DNA of 64,000 bases from Bryoerythrophyllum caledonicum (Eukaryota > Streptophyta > Bryopsida > Pottiales > Pottiaceae). A model generated the notes under the pieces. The model was not told where the DNA came from, did not search any database, and worked only from the letters and a program-made list of their open reading frames with translations. Every line of letters begins with the position of its first letter. Position 1 is the stretch's first letter. Both the position numbers and the translations under genes were made by a program. Positions 1 to 58,696 of the stretch are shown here, one piece after another. The stretch lies in NCBI GenBank assembly GCA_963971425.1, contig OZ020524.1:12713845-12777844 (forward strand), written 5' to 3'.

Positions 1-2
1 AC

Positions 3-1547
3 ACCGAACAACAATTGGTACCAAAACAACAACCAACATTCAAACCCATTTCCAGATTCCCATATCATTGCATTATTCGAGGCAGACACAATACCATACG
101 AAGAACCTACTATTCCACCCGAGTTAAAAAACCCCGAATCGAACCATCCACGTTACAAATACTATGCGTCCACCATCAAAATCAAACCCTTGGCTCCCTA
201 GAACAACTTACTGAACTTACCTCCTTAACATACAATTTAAATATACATCGACTATACACAAAACTGGCCCCACCAACACCTATACAAATCCCTGTAAACA
301 AAAGTAAAAACTGGTCAAAACTAAACTATGTCGACAACACACTAAACTACTCCGTCACACCTCCCCCTCACCCAAACTACCCAACTCATACCACACCAAA
401 ATTTAACCCCGCACACAGTTATTACACTGATGGCTCCTTTAAACCAACAAAACAAATAAGCCTGGGATCTTGGCGCAGAGAAAAAGTTGGCTATGGCATA
501 TATAATTCTATCAAAGAAATTAAATTAGCCAAAAGACTCCATGGACTACAAAAAATCCTCAGAGCAGAACTCATGGCCATTCACAAAACACTACAAATCA
601 TCACAACAAAATACAACAATGAACCTGCACATATATTTTCAGATTGTATAAATGCACTCTATTTACCAAACACTCAAATAACACACCCTACCCTTCATAA
701 TAGCCACCCCGACCAAACCATATTAACGTCAATGGTCCAAATGTTACAAAACCGTACACAAATCTCAACCCTCCACAAAGTAAGAGCCCATGCTAACATC
801 GATGGCAACGAACAAGCAGACAAATTAGCAAAAGAAGGCCGAGAAAAAACACACAAAAATTCCAAAGACCCACACGAACATGCCCACGCCACCCCATACT
901 ACTTTCAAAAAGAAGATTGGCCTTCCAAAGAAGATACCCCCGACAAAGGCCCGATCAAATTTCTGGGCAATTATCTCAAAAAACAAGACTTCTACAACAA
1001 CCTTGATACAATCTCACACAACTTCCCTAACATAGAAAAGTGGACTAACAACAATGACATAGACAATGAACTCTCGACAAATTTTTGGAAAAACCCCATC
1101 ATCACCGATTCACAAATCACATGCCTCATCAAATTCCATACCGGTCAATACATGGGAAACGCCCGTAAGCAACTCTTCTTTGGAATAGAAAGATTCCCAT
1201 CCATAACATGCCCCATATGCCCCTCAACAGACCCCGACATATGGCTTCATGTTCTACTCAAATGCCAAAACCACCACATACACTCTCTAATTGTTAAAAG
1301 ACATAATAAAGCGGTATGGGAAGTCCGAAAACTAATCACCTCATACAATAAATCGAGATGTTTTATACCAATGAACGCTGGCACTTTTAATAACAATCCA
1401 CAAGAAAATACGGTCCCCCCTTGGCTACTCCCATGTTCATGTATGATCCAAATATGTCATTGCAATGCTAGGCTCAAACCGGACATCCTTTGTGTTAAAG
1501 GTTTACCATATAATGACCCACCACCCGTTAACATCAACCAAGACTAA
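3..1547 (+). pseudogene. LINE polyprotein C-terminal half: RNase H and CCHC zinc knuckle
   Basis: The frame is open from the window edge, so the N-terminus lies outside. The RNase H domain has the four acidic/histidine signatures: YTDGSF near base 420, RAELMAIH near 560, FSDCINALY near 635, and VRAHANIDGNEQADKLA near 780-830. All expected catalytic positions are present in this copy, unlike the others. About 110 residues downstream is a CX2CX9HX4C motif (CPIC...H...C) near 1,210-1,265, typical of the zinc-binding domain found after plant and insect LINE reverse transcriptases. The stop at 1,545-1,547 is not the natural one. It is created at the junction of a 41-bp insertion. In the 58-kb copy the protein continues about 100 residues, and the matching sequence here lies at 1,600-1,936, with one further frameshift in a C run near 1,722. 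Confidence 0.85.
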
Positions 1548-1587
1548 AGAAGAAGAAGAAGAAGAACGCCGGTCTCCAAAGGAGATA
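1547..1587 (-). mobile_element. 41-bp minimal retro-insertion (tail hairpin plus TTC tract, antisense)
   Basis: The direct repeat CAACCAAGACTA occurs at 1,535-1,546 and again at 1,588-1,599. Between them are five GAA units followed by the arm and loop of the LINE/SINE tail hairpin in antisense. The uninterrupted copy of this LINE (58,026-58,036) has the sequence once with nothing between. This is therefore an extremely 5'-truncated insertion from the 3' tail of the LINE or SINE family, with a 12-bp target-site duplication. Confidence 0.88.
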
Positions 1588-2166
1588 CAACCAAGACTAC
1601 ATCATTCAATTCATTGAATTCACATATTACAACGATAGATTTTCCCCGGAAACAATCCAAAACAAAATAGATAAATACCATCCCTTATTGACGACATCAT
1701 CGCCCTCGAATGGAAGGTTGACCCCCCTTATTGTAATCACATCCGACGCTCGTGCCACCACCTTTATCCCATCTATGAAAACTCTAGAAGATACCTTCAA
1801 GATACCCATTGAAACAATTAAAACCTCCTTTAAAAACATTAACACCATAGCTACTCAATATGCCATGTCCATTCTTCTACATAAACGCAAAATCGAAAAC
1901 AATCAAGCCCTCCCCGATACACAGGACCCCCCTTAAACTCTTCCCCCGCCTTGATTTACCATGACTAGTTGGTTTTGAGGTTTTCACTACTTGCTCGGTT
2001 TGTGGTTATTTGGCTACTCGTTACATAGTGTCTATCCTCGAGAGAGGGAAGTAGTTCCAGCTGTCTAATTCCTTGTCCAGTGGGCATGGTCTTTGTAGTG
2101 GAACGAACAGACACTTTATTCACGGCGGCCTTCTCCGGAGACCGCCATTCTTTCTTCTTCTTCTAC

Positions 2167-3633
2167 TATATCTACTAAACACACAAATAACACGCCCTAC
2201 CTTCCACAATAATCACCCTGACCAAGCCATACTAACATCTATGGTCCTAATGTTACAAAGTTGAACACAAACTACAACCCTCCATAAAGTTAGAGCACAT
2301 GTCAACATAGAAGGAAACGAGCAAGTGGATAAACTACCTAAAGAGGGACTAGATAAATCCCATGGAAAGGCCAAACACCGGCATGAACACGCCCATGCTA
2401 CCCCATACTACCTCCAAAGAGAAAGTTGGCCTTCTATTGAAGACATCCCGGACAACGGCCCCATCAAATTTTTAGATTAATACTTCCAAAAACAAGACTT
2501 AATTAACAACCTTGACATTATCTCAGACAATTTCTTGAGCATAGACAAATGGACCGGTAATAACACTGACAATGAACTCTCTACAAACTTTTGGAAAAAT
2601 CCACAATTACAGATTCACCAAAAAATATGCCTTCTCAAATTTCGTACCAGACAATACATGGGAAATGTCTACTAACAACTTTTCTTTGGAACGGAATGCT
2701 TTCCACCCATAACATGCCCAATATGCCCCTCCACACACCCAGACACATGGCTACATGTACTCCTCAAATGCCAAAACCATTACATACACTCCCTAATCTT
2801 CAAAAGACATAACAAAGCAATATGGGAAATCCGTAAACTAATAATATCCTCCAATAAATCACAATGCTTCATACTTATGAACGCCGGAACCTTCAACAAC
2901 AAGTCACAATAAAATACTATTCCTTCATGGCTACTTCTATGCACAAGTGAAACCCAAAGATGTCATTGTAATGCCAGATTCAAACCATACATACTATGTG
3001 TGAGAGGACTACCATATAAAAACCCCCTACCGGACCACATAATCACAAACCTTACTATCCAATTCATCGAATTCAAATACTACAATGATAGATTTTGCTC
3101 AGAAGCTATTAAAAACAAAATTAATAAATATCAACTACATATTAATGACATTACAACCCTTAGATGGAAAAGTGGATCCCCTTATTGTCATTGCCGCCGA
3201 AGCGAGAGCTACCACCTTTATCCCATCTATGAAAAGTCTCCCAAAAAAATTCAATATCTCCATCAATCAAATTAAAAAGACATTCACAAAAATCAACACG
3301 ATTGCTATCCAACATGCGATGTCCATCTCCTTCACAAACAAAAAATTGAAAATAACCAACCTCTCCCCGAACTAAGTGGTAGCCTCTAAACCTCCCAAAA
3401 GCACACACATCATCTCTTCAAAATATGCCTTGTGGCTCTAACCTCGTCCTAGATCCGTGGTTACTAGTTACTAGTTACATATTTTTGGTTACATAGTGTC
3501 TACCGTCGAGAGGGAGGAGTAGCATCATACTACTAAATCTATGTTTTGTAGACATTGGTTTAGTGGTGGAACAAATAAACACTTTATTCACTCCGGCCAC
3601 CACAAGGGAGGACTGAAGTTCTTCTTCTTTAGT
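2167..3633 (+). mobile_element. LINE copy 2, 5'-truncated
   Basis: Homology to the LINE starts inside the RNase H domain (LLNTQITRPTFHNNHPDQ near 2,172) directly after the TTC tail of copy 1, and ends at its own TTC tail near 3,625. The reading frame carries several stops (for example after MLQS near 2,262 and at the FLD-stop near 2,478) and frameshifts. It still shows the RAHVNIEGNEQVDKL RNase H end and the CPICP...H...C knuckle. It is an old, dead copy, in the same orientation as copies 1 and 3. Confidence 0.85.
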
Positions 3634-3821: not shown

Positions 3822-5883
3822 GGCCTCCTATACAAACCAAAGTAAATTGTAATAAAAATGGTCTAAACTCCCTTACAAAACTACTCCTCAAACACAACTC
3901 ACAACAATCCCTCCACTTCCTGATTATTAACTCGACACTCCTCTAAATTTTAATCTCAAATTGAGCTATTATATAGATGGTTCTTTCAAAGAATGGACAG
4001 AAGTTAATCTAGGACATTGGCTCTAGGAAAAAGTTGGGTATGGTATTTACAATCCCATCAAAGAAACCAAAATAGTCAAAAGGCTACATGGCCTCCAAAA
4101 TGTTATTAAAGCAGAGATGATGACCATCCACAAAACTTTGTGCACAATCACCCCATAATACCCCAATGAATTGGCACACATCTTGATGGATTGTATAAAT
4201 GTACTATACCTCCTGAATACACAAATAAAACATCCAACTCTTCACAATAGCCACCCGGATTAAACCATCCTAGCATCCATGGTTGAAATGTAATAATGTT
4301 GCACACAAATTACTACACTCCATAAAATCAGGGCCCACGCTATTAATGATGGCAACAAACAAACAAATAATCTAGAAAAGATGGGAGTCATAATGCCTAC
4401 TGTGATCCCAAACACCTCTACAAACACGCCCATGCAACCCCACACTATTTTCAAAAATTCAAAGGGCCCTTTATGGAAGATATCCCAGACAAAGGCCCCA
4501 TCCGATTCTCGGACAAATACCTCAACAATCATGACCTTGTAAACAACCTAGAAATAATTTCCAACATTGACAAATGGAAAGGCAACAAATACATTGACAA
4601 CAAACCCTTTACAAACTTCTAAACAACCCCATTATCACCGACCCATAAAAAAACATGTCTAATCAAATCTCATACCGGACATGACATGGGAAATGCCCAA
4701 AAACAACCTTTCTTTGGAATATAATGATTTCCATCTACGACATGCTCCATATGTACCACCATGGATACATGCCACATAGCTACACATACTACTTAAATGC
4801 CAAAAGCATCACATCCACTCCCTCATTGTCAAAAGACACAATAAAGGGATGTGGGAAATTCAAAAGCTAATTGTATCCACCAACAAATCTCGGTGGTTTA
4901 TACTCATAAATGCCGGCACCTTCAATACAATCCACAAGAAAATACGGTCCCTAAATGGCTACTACCATACACATGCGGGACCTAAAGATGTCACTGTAAT
5001 GCAAGACTCAAATTGGACATACTATGCATTTGAGGCCTACCATATAATGATCCCCTACCACACCAAATAGCTCCAAATTCCACTATCCAATTCATTGAAA
5101 TCACATACGGCAATGATATATTCTCACCTGAAACCATTGCAAATAATAGAAATAAATATTAGCCACTTATTGATGACTTTACCGAGCTTGGTTGAAAGGT
5201 TGATTCCCTTTTTGCCATCAAAGCTGGCGCCCAAGCCACTACCTTCATCCCATCAATGACATATCTTGATAAAACATGTCATATTCCCATCACTTCAATT
5301 AGACATACATCTAAGAACATAAACACCATTGCAATCCAACATGTTGTGTCTTTTCTTCTCCACAAACGAAAAAATTGAAAACAACCAACCCCTCCCAAAC
5401 TTACAAAATCATTCATGAAACCTACTTACATCACAAACCTTAAATACAAGCACCGTTAATTTTGGGTTCCTAGTTTCCCATGTGTTTGGTTTTTGTTACG
5501 TGATACATAGTATCTACCCTCAAGAGGGAGGAGTAGTTCCATACTACTAACCTCAAACAAACACTTTATTCACGCGCCCATGGCGAATTGACCCCCTCAT
5601 TGGGAGTTATCCGAGGTGGGCCCCATCTTAATTGCGTGGGGCCATTTTTCTGGCCCTCTTATTTTGGGGGGTCCAAAGGCTATTTTTGGATTTTTGGGAA
5701 CAAATTTGGGACCCATGGCTATTTTTACCCACGTGACCCTCCCTTTTTATAATTAGGGCCCCATCCAGAAATAAAATAGGTGCCAAGTTTGGCCCCACCA
5801 CCTTGTGGCCACCTCGGGTAACTCCCAACGAGGGGGTCAATTCGCCCTGGGCTTATTCACGCCGGCCCCCAAAGTTCTTCCTA
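3822..5883 (+). mobile_element. LINE copy 3, 5'-truncated, heavily decayed
   Basis: The sequence aligns from upstream of RNase H (about 56,780 in the long copy) to the tail. The RNase H motifs YYIDGSF (near 3,973) and IRAHAINDGNKQ (near 4,327) can be read across many stops and frameshifts, so this is the most degraded of the four LINE copies. Its 3' tail is split by a 277-bp MITE at 5,576-5,852, after which the tail resumes with a TTC-like end near 5,883. Confidence 0.82.
5576..5852. mobile_element. 277-bp Mutator-like MITE with about 42-bp terminal inverted repeats
   Basis: The ends are imperfect inverted repeats starting GCCCATGGCGAATTGACC on the left and, reversed, GCCCAGGGCGAATTGACC on the right; they extend about 42 bp with three mismatches. 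The 10-bp sequence TTATTCACGC flanks both sides (5,566-5,575 and 5,853-5,862). A 9-10-bp duplication with long terminal inverted repeats is the Mutator-superfamily hallmark. There is no coding capacity. It sits in the tail of LINE copy 3 and so is younger than that copy. Confidence 0.85.
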
Positions 5884-6464
5884 CTTTTGGTGTGAACATG
5901 AGCCGCAATTCGGTGGGACCTGCAGCGTTCTCACTCCACGTTCCCGATCTTGTTCTCATGCCTTGTCCATGTTGAAGTGGCGTCCCGGGATCCGGGTGCG
6001 CTTGCGCCCCGCCACCGGCAAAGTGGTGGCTTGCCAAACCTACAGTACGCATAGGATGTGGTACGTATACATACAGTACAGTAAGCATACGTACAGGGAG
6101 GGCTTCCACCTCCTGATTTCGATTAGGGTTCCAGTCCTTCCGATCGCAGCATTGCTATGTTCTCGGACACACACATTCCGCGCAGCAGGAGCACAATCGA
6201 TTCTCGGATGCTGAAGCAGCAACCGCAGCAGGAGATCGTGCAGCAAGAGCACATCACATGATGGAGGGCGCCGATTGAGCGGAAGATGGTGTTCCAGCCC
6301 CTCTCGTGTTGCGCACTGGACGGGGTGCAGGTCGTGGATCACTCTACCACAATCCACTTCGCTGTCTCCAAGCACCACCGACTTTGCCTGTGCCCCAACC
6401 TGCGCTCCATCTTGATCACAGGTCAGAACAATCATCCTCAGGTCCAATTTTGCCGTTCTTTGCT
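5884..6464. other. GC-rich flank upstream of the ELMO gene, no supported gene
   Basis: This contains a CAG-rich stretch (6,205-6,250) and short open frames on both strands. None has a recognisable domain, and one candidate on the + strand has an in-frame TGA. A near-palindrome of 'gtacgta' words lies at 6,060-6,093. It may be promoter-distal sequence or an unrecognised decayed exon. Confidence 0.4.
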
Positions 6465-6815: not shown

Positions 6816-6934
6816 TTGGAGTAGATCGGGGGAGACCGGTTTGGTTTTGTGCCGTCTGGATCTTTGAGGTTCGAGGGAGTGGGATTTTGTGATTGTTTTA
6901 AAGGGGGAGGAAACTGGTCAACCAAGTGAGGACG

Positions 6935-7852
6935 ATGAACTCAGCAGGGGCGTTGCGGAGGAGAATACACCACGAGAATGCAGCAGGCGACCGGTTAAAC
7001 GAGCCGCTGCTAGCGCAGCGCAGCAGCAGCAGCGACGAAGACGGTGAGCGCGAGTGGAAGAAGCGGGAGGATCTCGTGTGGACAAATAACCTCTCCCGCC
7101 TCCTTGCGCAGTGGGCGCAGTGGTTCTCCGCCGTGGTGCTCGCGGGCGGGTTCCGATTCGGCAGCAACCTCTTTATGGCAGTGATCGGCCGCCACCAGCT
7201 GACCAAGACTCCCGAGGATGACCTCTCTCCCGTGGTGCTCTCCCGGTTGGCCACTCTCCAGCATCGTCTCGCCATTCCGTTCGATGGATCATTGCCCGGG
7301 CATCAGCACGCGCTGAAAGCGCTCTGGCAAGCGTCGTTTCCTGACAGAGCCATGCCGGGGCTGGTGTCTCCACAGTGGAAGGACATGGGCTGGCAAGGAA
7401 ACGATCCCTCAACGGATTTTAGAGGAGGCGGTTTCGTCTCGCTGGAGAATCTTCTCTTCTTCTCCCGCAGATTTCCCGTGATTTTCCAGAGGCTTCTCCA
7501 CAAGGAAGAAGGGCAGAGATCCGAGTGGGAGTATCCGTTTGCAGTTGCGGGGCTCAACATCACCTTCATGCTCATTCAGTTGCTGGATCTCCGTGCGGCC
7601 AAGCCGAGTTCTCCTTCGGTGGCGTCGTTCTTCAACATGTTGGCGTCGGATGAGGATTCGTTTGACTTGTTGTACTGTGTGGCGTTCAAGTTGCTGGATG
7701 GACAGTGGCTGGCGCAGGGCGCTTCGTACATGGAGTTCAATGCCGTGCTGCAAGCCACCAGGAAACAGCTCGAGAAAGAGTTGGCATTGGAAGACGTAGA
7801 TCGTGTTGAGGACCTCCCTTCCTACGTTGCTCTTGTGAGTTCCGTCGCATGA
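6935..7852 (+). CDS. ELMO/CED-12 domain protein (plant ELMOD type)
   Basis: A single-exon gene of 305 codons. The ATG at 6,935 was chosen because the frame upstream offers only a GTG. The N-terminus has an RRRIHHEN...LNEPLL segment, as in plant ELMO proteins, then an acidic/serine stretch (residues 30-42). The ELMO domain runs from about residue 95 to 295. It contains the family signature MGWQGNDPSTDFRGGG (residues 151-166), with Arg163 in the position proposed as the catalytic arginine of ELMOD GTPase-activating proteins. It also has WEYPFAVAGLNITFMLIQ (178-195), FDLLYC and QASYMEF-like blocks. By family knowledge, such proteins act on Arf/Arl small GTPases at endomembranes, and in plants they include the pollen-aperture factor MACARONI. 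Many plant homologues have introns, so the uninterrupted frame is notable. The C-terminus (LPSYVALVSSVA) matches the family's usual end point. Confidence 0.9.
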   Translation: MNSAGALRRRIHHENAAGDRLNEPLLAQRSSSSDEDGEREWKKREDLVWTNNLSRLLAQWAQWFSAVVLAGGFRFGSNLFMAVIGRHQLTKTPEDDLSPVVLSRLATLQHRLAIPFDGSLPGHQHALKALWQASFPDRAMPGLVSPQWKDMGWQGNDPSTDFRGGGFVSLENLLFFSRRFPVIFQRLLHKEEGQRSEWEYPFAVAGLNITFMLIQLLDLRAAKPSSPSVASFFNMLASDEDSFDLLYCVAFKLLDGQWLAQGASYMEFNAVLQATRKQLEKELALEDVDRVEDLPSYVALVSSVA

Positions 7853-13756: not shown

Positions 13757-16650
13757 TGATTCACAAACAGATCGGACAAGGCCAAATGTCAAGACGCCAA
13801 TCCTACCCATGGCAACCATGGCGGCGCCAAAATCGGCAATGAAGGCGTTGGGCAAGGCGGCCAGGGCGTTTACGCGGCCATTGGTCGCGGCATCATTGGC
13901 AAGGTCCTGGTCAATACGGAGCACGCCCTTGCTAGCTTGCAAGTGGTGGAAGTAGCTGGTGTCGAACGTAAACTCCGAGGTATCGTCCAGGGCCACGTTG
14001 GTGGTGCCGCCTTTCACGTCCGGGCACAACGATTGCAGCTTGTGTAGGTAGGACAAGTTGAGGTTTGGGTCCGGTTTGCCTGTTCCCTTGAAGTCATACA
14101 ACCGGTCCACAAAGAATAGGCACTGTGACACGCCCACCGTATGCGAACCTATCCAAAATAGACACATTAGTACATATACTTACAAATTCATAGACACATG
14201 AGTACACATACACATAGAAAGAGATGCAGATAAGTACACATCCCCTTAAGAATAGATACGCAAAAGTAGACAAAGAAATACTCCTTTCCTTCAATTTACA
14301 CTAGCATGAAGAAAGTGTGTTTTTATTTGGTCACTACAGTGAATTTATTATTATTGATGTGGATCATCTAATTTACATCAAACACATGCATGTCAAATTC
14401 TGATTGAATATTTGTTTTCAAGCAAGTGTGTGCTCATTGACGATTGCATGTAAATTTCCAATTAGTCTACAAACTTGAACTACTATGGTCAGCAATGGTC
14501 CACAACTACATTCGGTGAAAGGTGTAGTTAAAGATGGCCTATGATAGAAATTGAAGCTTGGAAACAATTCATTATGTCACCATCACAAAGGAGAAGGTTT
14601 ATCTAGCCAATGAATGTTGTGTTACTTTTGAGAGTTTGAGTTTCAAAACACACTACTGAATTCTTAGACCAAAATGGTTAAGAAAGTGGAGAGCCTTATG
14701 GTTATGTTTCTGGATAATTAGTTACTTCCTTATAAAGGCACCACGGCCTTGGAGTAGTGGTTTGGGTCATGGCACACTGGTGAGGTGGTTGTGAATTCAA
14801 GTCCGATTGCCGGCATGGTGCCTACCACCATAGTCCACCCAATTATGGTGGGGGTCCCCAGGCCTCGTTGTATGGGGAACCACAAAGCCTTGGGGGAGAT
14901 GACATGTCGGTTGTCTCTAAGGCAATTAGTGTAGGGAAGCACTTAGTGTAGAAAAGTGTTTACCCTCGAGAGGGGGGAGTAGTTCTATTACACTAGCCTA
15001 TGTCCCATGGCCATATGCTTAGTGAAGAGAATGAACAATCACTATATTCACACCGGTCTCCTTCGGAGACCGGAGTTCTTCTTCTTCTTACTTCCCTATG
15101 AATGAATTGAAAAGTCACCCGAAGTTTCAATAAGATACCTCTTTTCATTACTCTAAATAGACGTTAGACCTATGGAAGAGCTCTAAATAGATGTTAGACT
15201 TGGTGGTCTCCACACTAAAGTCTTAATAGTTTGAGTCACCTTTTTTGAAAAAGTTTGCATTAGATACTATGATAAATAATACTTGTCTTCCGATGAGTGA
15301 CGTGATCATGAACTATGTATAAGTACGTACAGGTGGATTTGATGGCAAAAAAGGAGGGGGTATCTTGTTCAAAATCTGGGTGAGTTTAGAAAGAATAACA
15401 ATTTACTAGGGTGGAGGTAAAGTTTACCAAGTAGAGTGACCATGTCTTCCTGTGTGAGACCGAGGTTGGTAAAAAATGGAGTAGCTTCTTCCACAGTCAT
15501 GTTGGGTCCGGGTATCTTGACCAGCACATCGGTGCCTGGCGCACTACCATCGAACCGACCCGTCTCTGTATCATAAGGAGCTCCACCAAGCTGCAAAATA
15601 AAACCAAAATCACCATTTTCATAACATTAATTACCAAGGTCCAATACACAATAGTGGGGAGCAAATCAGAAACACAAGGGTCCTACCAAAAGTGGAATCC
15701 ATCAAATCACCTCTTCTACTTGTATTCAACTTCAGCCAAAGGTGATCTATTAAATCTGGGGAACAACTCATGAAGGTGAAGGTTTTTCCAACTAATGAAT
15801 GTTATTGACAATTCTACTAAATTAACCCTTTAACGTCTGAGTGGACCACGAGGGGCTGGAAGAATCTACGAGCGTAATAGATTATGCAGAATAACATCTA
15901 AAAATTGGATACATTTCATCATGATCCCACTGCACGAAAATCATTGTAGTTCGCCAATGCCAGGAGATCAGGGAGATTTGTTGGGAAGCCAAGGTGTAGC
16001 TCAAGGTGCGTTTTGAAGAGGAGAGAGAGAGAGTTATATCAGTAAAAGCACAAGGGTTAACTGTGTGTGAGGAGTTCCTCACTACATTGTCATTTTAGGA
16101 AACCCTCTCCAAACATGAACATGAAGTGTATTCTCATTCGGGTAAGTGGAAAACTGAATATCTTCTTCATGCTTACGATTTGGACGGAATCGCGAGCAGC
16201 AAGGGCGGCTATGTCGGCGCACGACACCACGCCGGGGCAACTTGCTTCCAGCTGCGACTTGGCGTCGCTGATGACGCCGTATCCGCGCACAGACAGGTTG
16301 GGAGTCACCGTTTGCTCCGTCCCGAGCCCCGTCAGAAGCAACGATGCATCGCATCCCTGAATGTACAGATCATTCAATCCACCATCTAATCTCAGTACTA
16401 GCTTCAGCCAGCTTGTAGAATTCAGACTCCTCGGCCTAACTCTTACCTCGACAAAGCAGTCGTGGAAATGCAACCGGATGAGGCTGGCGGCGATGGTTCG
16501 GTCGGAAGCTACAGCTGCACGGACCGTGTCTTTGACGATGGATTCGGCTCTGGAGCAAGTGCTGTCGTAAAATCCCACTTGCAGCGCTACGTTAGCGAAG
16601 GCTACAATTAGCTGCAGGGTGACGAGCCAGAGCATCATGAATCGCGCCAT
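13751..16650 (-). CDS. Class III secretory peroxidase (four exons)
   Basis: Exons in coding order are 16,650-16,447, 16,356-16,177, 15,590-15,428 and 14,148-13,751; introns are GT-AG and the joined frame is 945 nt (314 residues). The start MARFMMLW gives a 24-residue signal peptide; an in-frame ATG at 16,749 lacks this. Distal heme residues are in IRLHFHDCF (Arg59, His63). GCDASLLL and SCPGVVSCADI carry structural cysteines, and the proximal histidine is in LLGSHTVG (His185). The C-terminal MGRIGVLT is followed by a last Cys (SVCESP) near the tandem repeat. By family, the enzyme oxidises phenolics with H2O2 in the cell wall or apoplast. Intron 2 carries a MITE fragment and intron 3 (1,279 bp) a complete SINE. 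The ending after GVLT differs from typical family members and may have been reshaped by the repeat. Confidence 0.92.
14734..15087 (+). mobile_element. tRNA-derived SINE, full length, in peroxidase intron 3
   Basis: A 354-bp element flanked by TTACTTCCTTAT (14,722-14,733) and TTACTTCCCTAT (15,088-15,099). The head has a pol III box A-like word (TTGGAGTAGTGG) and a box B-like word (GAATTCAAGTCC). From about 14,961 the 3' part matches the LINE tail. It ends in a hairpin with a perfect 9-bp stem (15,053-15,061 with 15,065-15,073) and TTC repeats. It lies antisense to the peroxidase. Confidence 0.92.
15829..15980. mobile_element. TTAA-family MITE fragment in peroxidase intron 2
   Basis: It begins TTAACCCTTTAACGTC and continues with the shared body words 'agaatctacgagcgtaatagattatgcagaa' (split across positions 15,861-15,893) and 'catttcatcatgatcccactg'. 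These recur at 17,690, 20,407, 25,587 and, reversed, at 25,460 and 59,830. Only one end is present. Confidence 0.6.
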
Positions 16651-16827
16651 TTTGGCCACCTCGGAATCAATCGGGTCCAGGCTATTTACGAGTTCGAACT
16701 TGATACTCCGACCTCGGAACTGATCCACTGATTTGAGGCGAAAGCACACACACTATCGTATTCCGATTACTGATCCTCGAATCTCAGTGGAGGTACGTAT
16801 GATTGAGTTCACTTCATGAGATGTCTA

Positions 16828-17222: not shown

Positions 17223-17226
17223 TTAA

Positions 17227-17689
17227 CCCTTAAATGTCAGAGGGTGTTACTGATAGCCACAGTATTCTACATGTATGGTGTTGTATTTCAACATCATAAG
17301 GATCACATACTGAAATCGGACCTCCTAATGAAAGATGTTAGTGGAAGAATCTTCAATCCAAAGGTGTAAGTCTTGCTAAACTTGTTTGATACATTGTTTG
17401 TATTCTACAAAGGAAAATATATGCTTCAACATATGGTTTCCAAATGACGTTTAAGGGACAACCCTTGAAGGTATGTGGGGGACCATGTGTACAGTCATGT
17501 ATTTTGCTCTCAGAATTTTAAAAATGTATTAACTAACTTTAGCAAGACTCACACCTTTGGATTATAGATTCTTCAACTAACTTCTTTCATTTGGAGGCCA
17601 TTTCCATTTCTGAACCTTGTCATGTTCAAGCATGACACCATACATGTAGGATATTGTAGCCATCAGTGGCACCTTATGGCATTTGAGTA
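17227..17689. mobile_element. 463-bp foldback MITE flanked by TTAA
   Basis: The two ends are inverted copies of each other over about 160 bp (17,227-17,385 against 17,530-17,689, roughly 75-80% identical by eye). They share 'ctacatgtatggtgtt', 'aatccaaaggtgt' and 'cttgctaaa'. TTAA lies at 17,223-17,226 and 17,690-17,693. There is no coding capacity. Single-arm fragments occur at about 19,200-19,330 and 34,590-34,650. Confidence 0.75.
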
Positions 17690-17845
17690 TTAAGGCCTAC
17701 TAGCACATGAGGTCTTGGAGAATCTACAAATGTAACAAATCATGTAGAACACCATGTACACATTGCGTACATTTCATCACGACCCCACTTGACAAAAATC
17801 ACTGTAATTTGCTAAACACACATTCTCACCACAAATCCATGCAAG
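17690..17845. mobile_element. TTAA-family MITE fragment abutting the foldback element
   Basis: It begins TTAAGGCCTACTAGCACATGAGG and carries the same body words as the fragments at 15,829 and 25,587. It starts exactly at the TTAA that ends the foldback element. Confidence 0.55.
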
Positions 17846-18860: not shown

Positions 18861-18985
18861 GAAGAAGAAGAACTCCGGTTCCTGTTGGGGACCGGTGTGA
18901 ATATAGTGTTTGTTCACTCACTTCACTAAACCCATGACGAGGGGACATAGGGTAGTGTAATAAAATCACTTCCACTGCTGCGATG
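18861..18985 (-). mobile_element. SINE 3' end, 5'-truncated
   Basis: Read on the minus strand, this matches the last about 125 bp of the SINE (tail block, hairpin with one bulged region, TTC repeats at 18,861-18,870). It matches the SINE version of the tail better than the LINE version (ATTACACTA..CCTATGTCCC). No clear target-site duplication was found. Confidence 0.8.
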
Positions 18986-19194
18986 CATGTATGCAGGATC
19001 ACTTAGAAGTTAGGGGTAAAAGGTCTAAGAAGCCACATTTGGATTGCACCATGATATTTTATGTGTATTTGACATAGATGTAGGAATTAATGTGTACAAT
19101 AGTTACAATGGTTTGTATTTGTGTTGAGCCCTATCCAATGAAACATGGCATGTTCAGTTTAGATCATCAATGCACCTACTGCATGTTTGAGGAG

Positions 19195-31020: not shown

Positions 31021-31344
31021 TCAAAGTTTTGAATGAAGAGAAGACTTGGTTGTCCGTGCCCTCATGTCACCGCCCTCACGTCTGCGCTCTAGCATCCCCC
31101 CTCACGTCCCCGCCTTGAAGGTAGTCCCTTGCTTAATGCTTGCAAAACTTGGCTTGGACCATGCCAAGGCTATTCCTTTCTCCTAAGGATTGGGGAAGCC
31201 ATTGATTGCAGTTGGCTATTTTTTTTAGGTCTGACAAGATCTTGACATTCCCCATTAATGACAACGATTCTGTCTTTGCCAATATGTGGGAAGGAACCCT
31301 ATATTTGAGGTATGACTTTGGAGGTCGTACTCCCCTCCTCTCCC

Positions 31345-31810
31345 CATTAGATTTAATTATTTGGTTGTCTTTCACTACCACTTCCTCCTTCCCTCTACCT
31401 CCATACTTAGATCATTTAATTAAATGTCTTTCATCCTCATCCCTTAGACCCATCCTCCCATTAGATTTTATTACTTTGTTGTCTTTCTCTATCACTTCCA
31501 CCTTCCTTCTACCTCCATACTATGCTTATTTAATTAAATGTCTTTCATTCCCATGCCTTACTTCCACCCCCATTAGATCTATTTAGAACGAAGGAGGAAG
31601 TGGTAGAAAAAGACAACAAAGTAATCAAATCAATAAGGGGGAAGGAGTAAGGGATGGGAATGAAAGACATTTAATTAAATAAGCATAGTATGGAGGTAGA
31701 AGGAAGAGGGAAGTGGTAGCGAGAGACAACAAAATAATTAAATCAATAGGGGGGAAGGAGCAAGGAATTGGAATGAAAGACATTTAATTAAATAAGCATA
31801 GTATGGAGGT
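31345..31810. repeat. Large palindrome of about 105-bp units (two forward, two reverse)
   Basis: Units ending 'ctacctccatact...ttaattaaatgtctttcat' occur forward at about 31,350 and 31,455. They occur reversed at about 31,590 and 31,700 ('aaagacatttaattaaataagcatagtatggaggt'). The centre is near 31,575. Confidence 0.8.
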
Positions 31811-36960: not shown

Positions 36961-37312
36961 AAGCACCACGGTCTTGGTGTAGTGGTTTGGATCATGGCAC
37001 ACTGGTGAGGTGGTTGTGAGTTCAAATCCTAATGCCGGCGTGGTGCCTACCACCATAGTCCACCCAAGTATGGTGGGGGGTCCCAAGGCCTTGTTGTATG
37101 GAGACCCACAAAGCCCTTGGGGGAGATGACATGTCGGTTGTCTCTAAGGCAACTAGTGTAGGGAAGCACTTAGTGTAGAAAAGTGTTTACCCTCGAGAGG
37201 GGGGAGTAGTTCTATGACACTAGCCTATGTCTGGTGGCCATATGCGTAGTGAAGAGAATGAACAAACACTGTATTCACAGCGGTCTCCTTTGGAGACCGG
37301 AGTTCTTCTTCT
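36961..37312 (+). mobile_element. tRNA-derived SINE, full length, second copy
   Basis: A 352-bp element with an exact 13-bp target-site duplication TGCACTCCCTATT (36,948-36,960 and 37,313-37,325). The box A-like TTGGTGTAGTGG is at 36,974 and the box B-like GAGTTCAAATCC at 37,018. From about 37,188 it shares the LINE tail. The hairpin is CGGTCTCC, TTT, GGAGACCG at 37,281-37,299, followed by TTC repeats. It lies inside the long-inverted-repeat unit. Confidence 0.95.
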
Positions 37313-49057: not shown

Positions 49058-50523
49058 CAAAACCCGCCAGAACGACACATTCACACTCCGCACCCGTATA
49101 TCAAATTTCTTGAAGACAACCAAAATATTATAAACCATGGGAACTCAATACATAAGGAACTATTTGACTTCTTACATAGTCAAACCATACCCCCTTCAAA
49201 TGAAACAATAAAACTAAAATTCCCTTACTTCCCTAACAACCTCATAAATGAATCACTTAAATGTCTAGAGCCTATACCAGAATATACCCACCCACCCCCA
49301 CCTCTTCCCTACATCCCTCCTCTAAATCAAAACATTAGATCAAATCAAGAAAATACATACATAATCATATGGAATGCCTCCTCACTAAACAGTGCCCTTT
49401 CTAGCTTACAAACTTCGGTCACACACACAGACACACCACCGGCCCTCATAGTTATACAAGAAACAAAATTAACCCCCACAAAATCTACAAAATACATACA
49501 AAATATATTTCAAGACTATAAACTCATCTTTAATAATACACATGCACTTACAAGATGCATTCAACAACGGAGACCATACACACCGGGCCGCGGTGGCCTC
49601 CTTACACTAATACACAAAAAATATGCCTTCCCGGGCAACATCAACAAAATTCCTACCCCAATGCAGATATCACCTTACATTCAAATAATCAAAATCACTA
49701 ATCACCCACTACAACCGTGGTTAATCTTTCACATGTATATGCCATCCCATCCCGAAGATACTAGATTTATCATAGACATACAAAACACTATTACATCCCA
49801 AATTAATAATAACCCCAATCACACATACCTATTATGTGGAGACTTCAACAGAGACATAGCGCTAGTTGGTCGCCAAAATGGAAATCATAACACCCCCCTT
49901 AAAACATTGATTATCAATTGCGCCGCTTCACAAAAAACTTAAACTTCACTTACATCAATACCAATACACAATTCTCTAGACAAGGTGGCTATAATTATAG
50001 TGATTGGAGTCTAATAGATGGATTGTATATAAATACAAACAATAATACACAATGCACCTCTACAACAAACAAGGATGTTATTCTCAACTTGGACCACTCA
50101 CCTATACAATTGCACATCCCAAATAACACATTAATTAATAGAACTTCTACAATCCTAAACAATGACATTATACGCATACTCAACCCCATCTCAAAAAACA
50201 ATATAGAAAAATTCAACACAAAATTCTTTAAAGAAAACTCCATACAAATAGACTCCCTCATAAACACTCTTGAAAATAATAGTCAACTAGCACAAGTACA
50301 ATGGCAAGAAACATGCCACACCCTAGACAAACTCATCAATAAAATCTATACACTAGAACAAACTTGTAGAGCACATCCACTACCTCAAATAACAAACAAA
50401 ACTTTCCAAGAAGGTGGGTACTTACCCCGCAAACTTTCTAAAACTTGGAAACAACACCTAATCACATACCATACTATACAAAAAACCATTAGAATTGTAA
50501 AAAAACAACCCTCAATGGCGTAA
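49058..50523 (+). pseudogene. LINE apurinic-type endonuclease domain
   Basis: The domain begins near IIIWNASSLNSALSSL (49,364). Catalytic-site signatures are IVIQETKL (Glu), GRGGLLTLIHKKY, LLCGDFNRDIALVGRQNG (Asp, Asn) and, after a frameshift near 49,930, SDWSLIDGLYI and LDHSPIQLHI (the terminal Asp-His). This is the class of endonuclease that nicks the target in target-primed reverse transcription. About 100 residues of Pro/Asn-rich sequence precede it, with no CCHC gag motif visible. The frame ends at a TAA near 50,521. The apparent start codon at 49,046 belongs to flanking DNA. Confidence 0.85.
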
Positions 50524-51635
50524 TCACCCCATATGCAATGAACTACTAACTCTACAACACGCCCAAATCCTTAACCCGCCGCCTACGGATCTTCCCCACG
50601 ATACATGAATAAAAGATATCGCACTAATTGCAAAAAATGCCAACATACAAGCTCGGAAAGTAACCTCAAAATACGCCAAAGATAACATTAAAAAAGCCAT
50701 CTCAAAATACAGACAATTATACGAAATCAGCCCAAAAAATTTAACAAAAAAGTCTTTAAAAACCTTGAATCCCTGCCAATGGATTCTATCACAGATCAAT
50801 ATAATAATATTCTAACTAGCCCTGAAGACATTGCGAATGAAATATTCAACCAACAAACAAAAATCAATAGACCAACAGTACCAACATGTAATTACCAACC
50901 ACAACATCCAATCAAATATACATGTGCAATACGCCAATATCCATGGCATGACATAGATGGATATATCCTTGACAAACGAGGCGAACCAGAAATTCCACTA
51001 CATAAATACTTTAACAGAGCCACATACAACACACGCCTTCAAAATCTTGGTAACAACAAAGCCCAAAGCCCAGATCGCATACCAAACTCAATACTCAAAA
51101 ACATGCCTCCAAGATTTCATAAATTATTATTCATATTCTTCTCTCACTGCTTTAAACAAAAACAAATACCGACCTCATGGAAATCAAGTGCAACAATTTT
51201 ACTATACAAAAAAGGCGACCCGTCTATACTACCCAACCATAGGCCAATTGCACTAGCTAACACAATATATAAACTATTTACTAGTACACTCACCTCTATA
51301 CTATCCTCATATGGTGAAAAATTCAAAATCCTACATGATAGTTAAGAAGGATTTAGAGCAGAGAGAAGTACCGCTTGACAAATACAAACTATAATAGCCG
51401 CACTCGAAGACGCAAAATTTACAAACCAAGATATATACATATTGTACGTTGACTTTAAAAATGCCTTTGGCTCAATAGACCATGCCCGACTACTAGCAAT
51501 AATGATGGACCTTGGTTATCCAAAAGATGCAACTACATTTGTAGGAAACATCTACTCCCAATCATCTACTTACTATATCGGTGAACACTTAGGAAAAACA
51601 AAACCTATACCCATTCAAAGAGGAACTATACAAGG

Positions 51636-54278
51636 TGTGAGCCAAATAAACCGCCCCCTAACGGGTGGCTTAACTTGAACACAAGACCCTAATATGGGAT
51701 ACAACCCCTTGTGCAACCATCATTGAGACCAGCCATAGATATCCCATACAAGCATGGCGACTTATATCATGGTCACTTTGGAAGTTTGGTTATTGATTGG
51801 TACTGTGATGACTGAATTCAGCCTTAATGTGGACACGAACTTCAAACACGCATAAGTTTTGCCTTACGGCTTCGTTTTCAACAATTTTTGGCTTAGATGG
51901 GTTCAGCTTGGTCTTATGAACAAGATTAGACCTTCCAAGACCGGTTTCAGGTCAAGGTACGACCTTGACAGCAGCTGGTAGCAGACAGACTTCTTTTCTT
52001 GACACGAGAATTTACATCCCCATTATCTCCTTGGTTATAACTTTGTTTTTGATGTTTTCTTTTTCAATCCTTACTATTTTTTTGTGCTTAACACGATGGC
52101 AATTTTCAATTAATCAAAAAAATTAAATTCGGACTCACAACCATGCGACCAGCAGTGCAATACTCAATACATATATTCACTTAAGTCATGCACCATATGA
52201 TTCATGCATACATCATGCACATTCACAACCAAGGGTCTAACTCATGCATACGGCACACATACTTATCAGTTGAATTTAACTCTTTGTATTGACTTAAACC
52301 GACTTAGATTTGAAACCTTAATTCTCTTGTAATTTGGGCAGCGCTTCCACGCGATCGTTGTAGATAGTAAACTTAGGCTTCCTTCCTATTACATGCACAA
52401 AAGGTAGTGAACAAGGTTGAGAGAGGAAGAAAGCTCCCTGATCCCGCTTAATTCACCCTCTGCCCTTTGATGCTGACTTCGAGATCGTGCTCGTTTTTTC
52501 TCCGTGGTGCTCTTCACTCCGCAACCCGTATCTTCGTCATCACAGCTCTGATCCGCACGATCTTGAGCTTGTTGCAAAGCCAACGCTTTGATCTAACTAC
52601 TCCTAGAAATTCAGCTCAATTGGACCAAAACTCCGCGACTGACAAAGGAAAACCCAAGGCCGTGCGAGATCCGCCGCCGATCCTCCAGCTGGTCATCCTC
52701 GCTCCGCAGGTCGTATCTTTGTTGTCACAGCTTCGATCCACACCCTCTTGAGCTTCTTGGGAAGCCAACGCTTTGATCTAACTACATCTAAAAATCCAGC
52801 TTGATTGGACCAAAACTCCGCGACTGACAAGGGAAACCCGAGGCCGTGCATGATCCGCCGCCGATCCTCTTGCTTGTTGTCCTCGCTCCGCAGCCCGTAT
52901 CTTCGTTGTCACAACTCCGATCTGCACATTCTTGAGTTAGTTGGAAAGCCAACACTTTGATCTAACTACGTCTAAAAATTCAGCTTGATTGGACAGAAAC
53001 TCTGCGACTGACAATGGAAAAACCAAGGCCGTGTGAGATCCGCCGCCGATCCTCGAGCTGGTTGTCCTCGCTTCGCAGCTTGTATCTTCGTTGCCATAGC
53101 TTTGATTTGCACGCTCTTGAGCTTATTGAGAAGCCAACGCTTTGATCTACTACTCCTACAATCTTAGCTTAATTGGACAAAAACTCCGCGACTGACAAGG
53201 GGATATCTGAGGCTGTGTGAGATCTGCTGCCGATCCTCCAGCTGGTCGTCCTCGCTCCGCAGCCCGTATCTTCGTTGTCACAACTATAAATCACACGCTC
53301 TTGATCTTGTTGGAAAGCCCGCGCTCTGATCTAACTGCCGTCTAATTTTTGTAACAATTGACTGAAAATCCAGCCCACACGAGGGGGAATATGGAACCCT
53401 ACCTCTTCTCGCTCTTTCCACACCTCCTCTCGGTTTCCTAGCTCCTATCCTCACACTCGAATGAGCGACCTCCCAGGGGAAACCCCAAGGCCTTTGCTCC
53501 CTTTTTCGTTCCCAAGGTCGTTCTCATGGGTCTTTTGCATGCTCGAGCCGCCATCTTGGCTGCCACTACCAATGGCATCCTTTTAAAAAACATAAAGCTA
53601 TCCACTAATTCCTTGTGAGGCTCCCTTGCAATAACTAGGGAGGTGTCACTACTAACCTAGGAATATTCTACTAATCTTTTTTAACCTCATGTCACATGAT
53701 GTGTGCATGATCAACAATAAGTGAGCCGTCTAACTAATTCAAGGATGCTAAATCTACCTACTCCACCAAACTTGAATTCCCCTTGCGTGGGGTTATGCGT
53801 AATTTAATTAGTGATTGGTGGGGATTTTACCCAAGTCATTTCGACCCTTTCAGACTATTTTTTATGGGCTTTTTAAGCCTCACCCTTTTTTCTTCCTCCT
53901 CACCATCATTCTTCCATCTCTCCTATTTTTTCCGTGGTTAAATTACCGTGGCTTCTTCGCGGTTTCCAAATTGGTAGAAGGTAAATTCCTCTCCATTCCT
54001 TCTCCTTCTAACTCTTCTATTGTTTTTACCTTTCAACCTTTTATTTATTATTATTATTATTTTTTCTTTCTATTTTTTTTTTGGTTAACCACATAAAAAT
54101 CTTGGTTGCCATATTGTGGCTCCCAATCAAGAATTAGTGGATGAAAATAAACCAATTGGCCATTTTGGTCAAAAACTATGGGCTAATCCAATTGGAAAAC
54201 CCATTTCTACTACCTATTAACCTCAACGCGTACATTGTGTGACCCAGTCATCACCGTGAGCCGTTTTTGCGGCTCACA
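51636..54278. mobile_element. 2,643-bp solo-LTR-like insertion (TG...CA, 5-bp duplication)
   Basis: The ends are TGTGAGCC and GGCTCACA, with direct repeats CAAGG at 51,631-51,635 and 54,279-54,283. The insertion separates two halves of a reverse transcriptase frame that rejoin exactly. There is no gag, pol, primer-binding site or internal LTR pair, so a solo LTR is the simplest reading. An unclassified non-autonomous element is the alternative. A third of it is a 185-bp tandem array. Confidence 0.8.
52440..53345. repeat. 185-bp tandem array, about five units
   Basis: The landmark 'gca(a/g)...gtatctt(c/t)g' falls at 52,521, 52,706, 52,890, 53,075 and 53,259, a period of 184-185 bp. Each unit also has 'ttggaaagccaacgctttgatcta', 'aaactccgcgactgacaa' and 'gatccgccgccgatcct' variants. 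GC content is well above the surrounding LINE. Confidence 0.93.
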
Positions 54279-54848
54279 CAAGGGGACACCCTTAGCCCAT
54301 ACCTGTTCATTATATTCTTAGAACCACTTCTTAGATGGCTAGAATGAGGCAACAATGGATACACTTTTGGCACATCACAAGTCACAATAAACTATGCCAC
54401 ATACGCGGATGACCTCGCCGCCACAACTAACAAAATTAAATCTATCCAAATACAACTCAATAAAACTAATAGATATTGCAAATGGATTGGTATAGACGTA
54501 GGTGTCCCAAAATGCGCCGCTACCGGATGCCCAAACAAATCCAAATTGAACCCTACCACGTTCAAAGCCCTAATGCAAGCTTCTCACATCAATTACCGCA
54601 ATCTACCGATCCCCACACTACACCAAAATGAACCATACATACACCTAGGTACAAACCATGTTCCCTCACTAAAATGGAAAATCCAAATTCACACCACAAC
54701 CACAAAACTCATTAAACAATGCAAAGAACTAACAACATGTCCGCCAACCATGAAACAAAAAATAAAATTGGTTGATACCGTACTACGGCCAGGTGTGGCA
54801 TACACTTTCTACGGTGTACCATACTCTATGCCAGCTATCAAAAAATAA

Positions 54849-56889
54849 TAGCCATTAAAAAAACTACATGTGAACTTCCAAAATGTATGTCAAATGCGAT
54901 AACCCAACTCCCACCTAATCTATTTGGGCTTGAAGCTTTCTCCCTCAAAAACACATATCTCCGATGTATAGGTGAACAACTACAAAATGCTTTAAACGAT
55001 AAAGGTAGATTTGGAAAAATATATAATGGATTAACTCATTATGTCCTAGCCGAATACGGAGGTGCCGAAAACATATATTGAATTAAAAAAAGTGACTGCA
55101 TAAGATCACCAATAACACGAACATTCTTCTTATTAAAACACATAGCTAAAGTCCACCTTAAAAGTACTCTTCCAAACTTCCTCATTAACCCTATATCACT
55201 AGAAATACTATGGCGCCATGAAACACTAAACCACAACACATTCAATGCCCAACTCTCCCAAAAGCTTCTACAAAAACTCCTTTCAAAAAATATTTTTGAA
55301 CTAAACCAAATCACTTTACCTAATGGCACACACATCATGAACAATGATGACTTCAAAGCCTACCACTTCAAAGCCTACCACTTCATCCCATCTAAATTAA
55401 TAAAAAGTGCTCTAAATGTTGCTAAACAACTATTTGCCATCCAACATGCCCCACCACATGTCATACCCCTTGTAACATACACCCATACTCATATATACTT
55501 CAAGATACATTCATCACCATCAACAATAGCATCACCCCAAGAAATATCCCCCCACCAATCAATCCCCCTAACCCCCCACATCCATATCACCTCCGTCCTC
55601 CAACATACATCTCCAAAAACCCTACCACATTTTCCATTAATGACATTACACACCATAAACATATACAACACACAGATACGAATAATATACAAAAAACCTA
55701 CACAATATATTTATGCCAATGGCAACATAATGCGAATACATATAGCTAATGGCTTCCTCAAAGAGACCTTTTCCCACAACACGACACCAATACCTCCACA
55801 CATAACATTGAAAAATTAAAACAATACTCCCAAAAAATTCAAAACATAACTTACTCGGATATCATCCAAACCCACCACCCCCAAGAACAATCCTCAGACT
55901 CAAAATCTGTAACACCACCCATAATTATTCGACTCTTAAACATCTATACAACAAAATGCAATCCAGAGAATGATATCCTTACACTCGCAAACACAATAAA
56001 AATAAATAACAATCAAGCACACCTATATGAAGAAAATGGCCGACATTTACACACTATCTCCATCACTCGACTCCAATGGCTATGAAACCAATACAATACA
56101 AAACTACAAACTCCTACAAACATCGAACCAACGACCCAACCCTTTGAAACCGAATTAATTTGGCTATACCAAAGATATAAATACCGAATTCCAAAAAATG
56201 ACCCCCTCAAAAATGCGCAATACACAATACCCACCCCCATTTTAGACTCACTGATCTCATCCTTTAACATCGAACAATCATATTTTTCTTCCCCGGTCAC
56301 ATGTTCAACCAAACTAAAAAATTCTACTCACCTTATGAAAGAGACAAAATATTCGGATCTTTGGGAAAGGCCTTTGACTACAAATGGATTGGTAATGGTA
56401 TAGCACACCCCCACAACAAGAAGGAAATGGAACAAGCAATACATTGGGCTCCACTTGCCGCCAAACATGATCCAAATAACACAAATACAATCACACCAAT
56501 AACAATTGGTACCAAAACAATAACCAACACTCAAGCTCATTTCCAGATTCTCATATCATTGCATTATTTGAAGCAGACTCAATACCATACTAAGAACCTA
56601 CTATTCCACCCGAGCTAAGAAAACCCCAAATTGAGCCATCTACACTACAAATATTATGTGTCCATCATCAAAATCAAACCCTTGGCACTCTAGAACAACT
56701 AGCCGAACTTACATCCATAACAGACAATCTAAACATACTCAGATTGTACACAAAATCGGCCCCACCAACACCTATACAAACCCCCGTAAACCGAAGTAAA
56801 AACTAGTCAAAACTAAATTATATCAACATTACATTAAATTACTCCGTCACACCGCCCCCTCTCCCAAACTACCCAAATCATACCACACC
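54849..56889 (+). pseudogene. LINE connector between reverse transcriptase and RNase H
   Basis: Broken reading frames (54,887-55,081; 55,337-55,819; 56,301-56,618) cover a roughly 650-codon connector rich in Thr, His and Pro. No known domain was recognised. From about 56,500 it corresponds to the start of the window copy. Confidence 0.65.
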
Positions 56890-58374
56890 AAAATTTAACC
56901 CCACACATAGTTATTACACTGATGGCTCGTTTAAACCACCAGAACAAATTAGCCCAAGATCTTGGCGCAGAGAAAAAGCTGGCTATGGCATATATAATTC
57001 TACCAAAGAAATTAAATTAGCCAAAAGGCTCCATGGACTACAAATATCCTTAGAGCAGAACTCATGGCCATTCACAAAACGCTACAAATCATCACAATAA
57101 AATACAAGGATGAACCCGCACATATATTCACCGATTGTATAAATGCACTTTACCTACTAAACACTCAAATAACACACCCTATCCTTCATAATAGCCACCC
57201 CGACCAAACCATATTAACATCGATGGTCCAAATGTTACAAAACCAAACACAAATTACAACCCTCCACAAAGTGAGAGCCCACGCCAATATTGATGGCAAC
57301 GAACAAGAAGATAAATTAGCAAAAGAAGGCCGAGAAAAAACACACAAAAAAGCCAAAGACCCACACGAACATGCCCATGCTACCCCATACTACTTTCAAA
57401 AAGAAGATTGGCCTTCCAAAGAAGATACCCCTGACAAAGACCCGATTAGATTTTTGGGTAAATACCTCAAAAAGCAAGACCTCTACAACAACCTTGACAC
57501 AATCTCAGAAAATATTTCTAACATAGAAAAATGGACCAACAATAACAACATAGACAATGAACTCTCTACAAATTTCTGGAAAAACCCCATCATTTCAGAC
57601 TCACAAATAACATGCCTCATCAAATTCCGTACTAGTCAATATATGGGAAACACTCGCAAACACCTCTTCTTTGGAATAGAAAGATTCCCATCCATAACAT
57701 GCTCCATATGTCCTTCAACGGACCCCGACACATGGCTCCATGTTCTACTAAAATGCCAAAACCACCACATACACTCCCTAATTGTTAAAAGACATAATAA
57801 AGCGGTATGGGAAGTCCGAAAACTAATCACCTCCTACAACAAATCGAGATGTCTTATATTAATGAACGCCGGCACCTTTAATAACAATCCACAAGAAAAT
57901 ACGGTCCCTCCTTGGCTACTCCCATGCTCATGTGTGACCCAAAGGTGTCATTGCAATGCTAGGCTCAAGCCGGACATCCTTTGTGTTAGAGGTTTACCAT
58001 ATAATGCACCACCACCCGATCACATTAACCAAGACTACACCATTCAATTCATTGAATTCACATATTGCAATGATAGGTTTTCCCCGGAAACAATCCAAAA
58101 TAAAATAGATAAATACCAACCCCTTATTGACGACATCATTGCCCTTGGATGAAATGTAGATCCCCTTATTGTAATCACATCTGGCGCTTGTGCCACCACC
58201 TTTATCCCATCTATGAAAACTCTAGAAGATACCTTCAAAATACCCATTGAAACAATTAAAACCACCTTTAAAAACATTAACACCATCGCTATTCAATATG
58301 TCATGTCCATTTTATTACATAAACGCAAAATTGAAAACAACCAAATCCTTCCCGAAACACAAGACCCCCCTTAA
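56890..58374 (+). pseudogene. LINE RNase H, CCHC knuckle and C-terminus
   Basis: YYTDGSFKPP (near 56,915) is separated from LMAIHKTLQIITIKY (57,064) by a 1-base deletion near 57,045. Then follow FTDCINALYL, VRAHANIDGNEQEDKLAKEGR (the last catalytic Asp region reads EDK) and the CSICPSTDPDTWLHVLLKC knuckle. The frame stops at a TGA (58,150-58,152) where copy 1 has TGG. The ancestral frame continues as VDPLIVITS...ATTFIPSMK to TAA at 58,372-58,374. Confidence 0.85.
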
Positions 58375-58389
58375 ATTCTTCCCCCGCTT

Positions 58390-58550
58390 TGATTTTTTCT
58401 TGATTGGTTGGTTTTATGGTTTTTGGCTACTTGGTTGGTTGGTTTTGTGGCTTTTTTGGCTTCTTGCTTGGTTGGTTTTGTGGTTTTGGCTGCTTGCTTG
58501 ATTTGTAGATTGGTTGGTTGATTGGTTGTTTGCTTGATGGGTTTATGGCT
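58390..58550. repeat. TTGG-rich simple repeat in the LINE 3' UTR
   Basis: Repeats of 'ttggttggttttgtgg..tttggct' are expanded compared with the same position in copy 1 (1,955-2,010). Confidence 0.8.
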
Positions 58551-58696
58551 ACCCGTTACATAATGTCTACCCTCGAAAGGGGGAAGTAGTTCCAGCTTAC
58601 TAATTTCCTGTCCGGTGGACATGGTCTTAGTAGTGGAACGAACAGACACTTTATTCATGCCGGTCCCCTTCGGGAACCGGCGTTCTTCTTCTTCTT

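Follow-up and report, generated by a model that had tools for sequence, protein, structure and literature searches.

We asked whether a SINE in the genome of Bryoerythrophyllum caledonicum is copied by the LINE whose 3′ tail it carries, and what kind of LINE such a partner would be. A SINE with the same folded tail as a LINE most likely borrows the copying machinery of that LINE. The copies of both elements were located and compared in one stretch of 64,000 nucleotides (hereafter the window). The reading that best explains our results, and which we consider probable on the strength of the nucleotide sequence, is that the SINE and the LINE form a stringent pair in the genome of a plant, in which the LINE is of the Dualen/RandI type and carries a PCIF1-like domain.

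Two full-length SINEs with TTC ends lie on the plus strand at 14734..15087 (SINE1) and 36961..37312 (SINE2), and they are 92.9% identical over 351 columns. The tail common to the LINEs occupies 14957..15087 of SINE1, where predicted stems are followed by (TTC)n, and 37184..37312 of SINE2, both on the plus strand. On the minus strand, 18861..18989 is a fragment with a SINE-type tail and no head, which matches SINE1 at 82% identity across 113 nt. The coordinates given in the original prediction for both SINEs and for two LINE tails were correct. The SINEs had also been described as tRNA-headed, and this description stood in part. SINE2 contains an exact Pol III box A and a box B with one mismatch, a pair that is unique at that level when both strands of the 64 kb are searched at a spacing of 30–60 nt; boxes A and B of SINE1 need one and two mismatches, and the window holds six such pairs on the plus strand and five on the minus strand. 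TTTT was absent from both SINE1 and SINE2. The Pol III boxes are present, but no tRNA was recognized by ARAGORN (0 tRNA genes) or by Rfam at the gathering threshold, and over 36900–37350 Rfam gave none even at E up to 10. The head may resemble tRNA-Gly; a tRNA origin is suggested by the promoter boxes.

Four LINE copies, all on the plus strand, were found in the window. LINE A (1..2166; tail 2029–2166) is cut by the window edge, has one frame open from base 3 to 1544, and retains RNase H, the zinc finger and the first part of the restriction-like motif. It ends directly against LINE B (2165..3630), a decayed copy with its tail at about 3496–3630, which points to nesting. LINE C (3859..5885) is also decayed, and its tail is broken by an inverted-repeat element that was delimited by eye at about 5574–5850. 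LINE D (49058..58696; tail 58566–58696) is the longest copy and contains frameshifts and stops. An insert of ~2.6 kb (51636–54278) with the ends GTGAGCC/GGCTCAC interrupts its reverse transcriptase and includes degenerate direct repeats at about 52505–53345. Across 330 codons compared between LINEs A and D, dN was 0.050 and dS 0.367 (dN/dS 0.14), with ratios of 0.11 ahead of the zinc finger and nuclease stretch and 0.20 inside it. This purifying selection between A and D makes it probable that the lineage from which the copies came maintained a working LINE protein.

The window also contains two likely host genes, i.e., a peroxidase gene on the minus strand (16090–16749; PF00141, E=4e-32) and an ELMO/CED-12 domain gene on the plus strand (6926–7852; E=4.2e-50). 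Eight PDB sequences matched the former at E up to 1e-20, all of them named peroxidases, including those of peanut, barley, royal palm and banyan, so that this gene is plant-like and indicates a plant host. The stretches 17223–17693 and 31335–31810 are ~74–76% identical to their own reverse complements and appear foldback- or MITE-like, and a 216-aa open frame on the minus strand (21880–22530) had no Pfam match at E up to 0.01.

We then compared the SINEs with the LINEs along their length. SINE1 matched the LINE D tail with 76.1% identity over 134 columns (86.0 bits), the match beginning at SINE1 position 224 and running to the end. The LINE A tail matched with 72.1% identity (136 columns, 61.7 bits) and the LINE B tail (3495–3629) with 69.9% (136 columns, 48.2 bits). 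The best score among 200 mononucleotide shuffles of SINE1 was 31.0 bits, and the first 215 nt of SINE1 gave nothing above 21.1 bits against LINEs A, B and D. That is, the homology is limited to the last ~130 nt of the SINEs and the heads are unrelated, which is the pattern of a stringent pair; this tail-only similarity and the TTC ends are direct observations. The expectation that SINE and LINE tails align and end in TTC was thus borne out. All copies lie within one 64-kb window, as they would if the likeness had arisen by chance or by gene conversion among nearby repeats. We regard this as very improbable, because there are separate insertions with duplications of their own, and the score is far above those of the shuffles. 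Moreover, SINE and LINE tails differ by at least 25%, so there has been no recent conversion.

A covariance model was built from six tails (the two SINEs, the minus-strand fragment and LINEs A, B and D) and run over the window with cmsearch. The six source tails were recovered at 103.6–150.7 bits, and the next matches were the broken tail of LINE C (5511–5601; E 1.3e-7) and a 41-nt tail-only insertion (E 0.02). The remaining matches in the window had E of at least 0.067, several being the opposite strand of known tails, and no further strong tail was present. LINE B, the broken tail of LINE C, the minus-strand fragment and the 41-nt insertion are tail copies beyond those listed in the original prediction. 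Outside the window, three scans of viral contigs with the LINE proteins confirmed no relative, and a scan of viral contigs with the tail pattern gave no match. In a genome contig collection of 257 Gb, five bacterial loci matched a shortened form of the pattern (17 fixed bases and one R), for which ~15 matches are expected by chance.

The tails of SINE1 and SINE2 are 68.5–75.0% identical to those of LINEs A, B and D, which is inside the range among the LINE tails themselves (65.4–80.2%). The nearest LINE tail in the window is just 75.0% identical to the SINE1 tail and 73.8% to the SINE2 tail, and the LINE tails differ mutually by 20–35%; therefore, other subfamilies probably exist. Under these circumstances, the SINE may have been born from the tail of the LINE A–D family and now be mobilized by another LINE with a related tail. 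Two further values count against the pairing that we prefer: identity to the LINE A tail is as low as 59.8% in the minus-strand SINE fragment, and between LINEs A and D the tails (80.2%) are less alike than the compared reading frame (90.2%, DNA). However, the window holds no other strong match to the covariance model, and the insertions of the SINEs and of LINE D are alike in end type and duplication length. We therefore consider mobilization by a different LINE unlikely, and continue with the pairing of the SINE with the LINE A–D family.

Next, we examined whether the common tail has a common fold. Folding and pair counts favour several stems over the single hairpin first proposed, which we abandoned, and the tail probably has two or three of them according to the predicted structures. 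Single-strand folding of the six tails gave z-scores of -2.77, -1.71, -1.24, -3.35, -2.48 and -1.47. A central arm of varying sequence folded in all six tails. The terminal hairpin folded in five of six, LINE B being paired otherwise there. Stem 1 (CCCTC/GGGGG) folded in SINE1, SINE2 and LINEs A and D and not in LINE B, the minus-strand fragment being without the stem 1 part. In LINE A, 3 of the 12 counted central-arm pairs are broken. The terminal hairpin and the central arm are both likely in these models, and stem 1 may form. A three-stem structure of 27 pairs drawn on the alignment had 87.3% of its 157 cells paired, compared with 36.0–47.6% when one strand was slid by 1 to 3 columns; the six sequences scored here are also those from which the structure was derived, so this control is biased in its favour.

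The stems had been predicted to keep pairing while their bases change, and covariation had been proposed as the check. Six pairs changed on both sides, compared with a shuffle mean of 3.0, and 15 of 500 shuffles reached six. By contrast, the covariation term of RNAalifold was unfavourable (+0.42), although 9 of the 35 pairs in its structure changed on both sides. The predicted base swap was seen at one pair only (columns 99–122), which is G-C in LINE A and C-G in three of the six tails but unpaired in SINE2 and LINE B. These counts suggest a modest covariation of the stems (n=6 tails), in which the differences between SINE and LINE tails appear to keep pairing in part. RNAalifold also proposed another lower part, with the UUC repeats paired to the G-rich strand of stem 1. 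This pairing (alignment columns 17–24 and 127–134) would compete with stem 1, and it could make the whole tail a single closed domain. The prediction of a stringent pair with the LINE as driver was therefore retained as the best reading, with similarity limited to the tail and far above shuffles, but with several stems in place of one hairpin.

If the tail directs copying, the insertions may carry marks of the reaction. Target-site duplications were searched for at SINE1, SINE2, LINE D, the 41-nt insertion and the 18861–18989 fragment, with flanks of 30 to 70 bases and with ~7 kb for the upstream copy of LINE D; the 5′ side of LINE A lies outside the window. SINE1 is flanked by a 12-bp duplication with one mismatch (TTACTTCCTTAT at 14722–14733 and TTACTTCCCTAT at 15088–15099). 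Perfect 13-bp duplications flank SINE2 (TGCACTCCCTATT; 36948–36960 and 37313–37325) and LINE D (TATGAAAAGTAAA; 49045–49057 and 58697–58709), and none was found around the minus-strand tail fragment. Perfect matches of at least 12 bases occurred between random 30-base stretches at a fraction of 0.0004 (5000 trials), a chance that is larger for LINE D because its upstream copy was sought over ~7 kb. The 41-nt insertion lies on the minus strand within LINE A (1547..1587) between perfect 12-bp copies at 1535–1546 and 1588–1599. It is made up solely of TTC repeats and part of the terminal hairpin (the inner stem, the loop and the whole 3′ arm), and the reading frame of LINE A is continuous once it is removed and the flanks are joined. 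Duplications and a 5′-truncated insertion beginning at the tail are thus directly observed. A piece of tail of only 41 nt with a perfect 12-bp duplication suggests that copying begins at the TTC end. Together, the insertion marks, as read from the sequence, indicate target-primed reverse transcription started from the TTC end.

The domains of the LINE protein, which were absent from the original prediction, were then assigned on the plus strand of LINEs A and D. An APE-type endonuclease at 49340..50250 of LINE D shows, in two frames, the motifs WN, QETKL, GDFN and LDHSP, which by eye we take to be those of APE endonucleases. The region matched PF03372 with E=3.1e-5 and 24.3 bits, just below the cut-off of 24.5; an exodeoxyribonuclease III model gave E=0.005 (far below its cut-off), and exonuclease III in the PDB gave E=0.66. 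The reverse transcriptase (50692..55078) consists of two RVT_1 pieces split by the insert, which cover profile positions 59–123 and 146–192 with E=0.001 each, both below the cut-off. Five of the six PDB matches of the first piece were R2 proteins (best E=0.0029) and none was an L1 protein; the second piece had 0 matches in the PDB. Between the reverse transcriptase and the PCIF1-like domain, Pfam gave nothing better than E=0.14 (55082–55816 and 55750–56082). RNase H was clear in LINE A (417..842; PF00075, E=2e-11) and weaker in LINE D (E=1e-4). No cysteine protease, presumably a feature of Dualen, was found in the scanned LINE pieces.

At the C-terminus of LINE D (57700..58149), a CCHC zinc finger (C-x2-C-x9-H-x4-C) is followed by the restriction-like endonuclease motifs RHNK, KPD, IEF and KIDKY, in the order of R2 and with similar spacing. 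Both LINE D and R2Bm contain the motif string, whereas 0 of 100000 shuffled versions of LINE D did; it was composed after both proteins had been viewed and is therefore a description more than a test. KPD is kept in LINEs A and D and is KPY in decayed B and KLD in decayed C. Its aspartate is the residue changed to alanine in the R2 entries 8ibw–8ibz and is thus presumably catalytic. We considered that the element could be an ordinary APE-type LINE with RNase H, from the I or plant L1 group, and the CCHC and RHN...KPD motifs merely a zinc knuckle. In line with this, Pfam gave no family for the C-terminal stretch up to E 10, the profile search of the PDB turned up no nuclease, and BLASTP against R2Bm gave nothing. 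Likewise, hhalign with a nuclease profile was borderline (E 0.008 with a probability of 5%; the score of 21.9 compares with 21.6 for the best of 100 column shuffles), AlphaFold modelled the domain only at pLDDT 31 for lack of homologues, and KPD is lost in B and C. However, the R2-like motif order and spacing, the aspartate kept in A and D, the R2 and no L1 matches of the first reverse transcriptase piece, and the purifying selection on the stretch all argue against a mere knuckle, which we judge rather unlikely. Most likely, from its predicted protein, the LINE is of the Dualen/RandI type, with APE, a putative restriction-like endonuclease, R2-like reverse transcriptase and RNase H, and carries in addition a PCIF1-like domain.

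PCIF1 is an RNA methyltransferase with cap methyltransferase activity, and NPPF is its catalytic motif. The PCIF1-like domain (PF12237) lies between the reverse transcriptase and RNase H of LINE D, at 56086..56500 on the plus strand, across one frameshift. Its two pieces matched colinear parts of the profile, positions 11–76 with E=6.9e-5 and 77–142 with E=0.021, each below the cut-off. When they were joined with X over the frameshift, E was 4.5e-11 and the score 43.1 bits, against a gathering cut-off of 31.1. The joined query matched PCIF1 in the PDB at E=0.052 (6irx) and 1.0 (6irv), with an unrelated glyoxalase at 0.86, and the second piece alone had 0 PDB matches. The PF12237 region is thus common to PCIF1 (6irv, 6irx) and the element, but here it lies inside a LINE, and ANPPF, which aligns with AHPHN, is not intact in the single copy (decayed LINE D) that covers the site. 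Our guess is that the domain would methylate the element's own RNA.

RTE-clade LINEs are not known to carry RNase H or the restriction-like nuclease. The tobacco SINE TS and its RTE-clade partner RTE-1_Stu are likewise a stringent pair of a land plant with a common tail of ~100 nt and a trinucleotide end, but that end is (TTG)n, compared with TTC here (PMC3747384, as excerpted). Maize ZmSINE2 and ZmSINE3 have a tail in common with LINE1-1_ZM, also with a stem-loop of varying stem bases, but the LINE belongs to the L1 clade, ~50 nt are common and one stem is described (excerpts of PMC3747384). A close parallel is known from Chlamydomonas, where, in the same excerpts, SINEX-1, -2, -4 and -5/-6 are paired with RandI (Dualen) LINEs (PMC3747384). 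Those SINEs likewise share their 3′ ends with a Dualen/RandI LINE and end in a microsatellite other than poly(A). They differ in having a green-algal host, (ATT)n or (CTTT)n as end repeats and, in three of four table rows, a promoter given as unknown; the excerpted text does not mention a methyltransferase domain (PMC3747384). Dualen/RandI LINEs carry both APE and restriction-like endonuclease, as the LINE here probably does (excerpts of PMC4640811, PMC3636483 and PMC8226300) together with RNase H (PMC4640811); the plant host, the PCIF1-like domain and the TTC end distinguish the present element. Dualen elements are comparatively obscure and, in the part of the source that we cite, are described in Chlamydomonas and its relatives (PMC8226300).

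The 2013 tables, in the available part of that paper, name TS, ZmSINE2 and ZmSINE3 as SINEs of land plants for which a partner LINE is given, and place RandI under green algae (PMC3747384). None of the plant SINEs and LINEs in these tables has a TTC end, and "TTC" occurs 0 times in the available main text (PMC3747384). The original prediction knew of no described plant pair with a TTC tail, which fits the 2013 tables but is a statement about that date more than proof for today. Among the open-licence papers listed in our searches, none was seen to report Dualen LINEs from land plants or a PCIF1 domain within a LINE. Since SINE/RandI pairs are known from Chlamydomonas, the pairing itself is of a known kind; as far as seen, the new parts are the plant host, the TTC end, the multi-stem tail and the PCIF1-like domain.

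We propose that the LINE protein would bind the structured 3′ tail of ~130 nt of its own RNA, and that target-primed reverse transcription would start at the UUC repeats after the last stem. The SINE, presumably transcribed as a short RNA of the Pol III type, would have captured a copy of the LINE tail and would be copied by the same LINE protein, i.e., mobilized in trans. The scenario in full is that a Dualen-type LINE lineage of plants was recently active, that its PCIF1-like methyltransferase marks the element RNA, that the multi-stem, UUC-ended tail is what is recognized, and that a Pol III SINE copied the whole module and moved in trans; taken together, we give these somewhat less than an even chance. 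A Dualen-type partner in a plant, if true, would extend this group to the streptophyte line and provide another tail system for studying RNA selection by LINE proteins. A methyltransferase within the LINE protein, if true, would link nucleic-acid methylation directly to retrotransposition.
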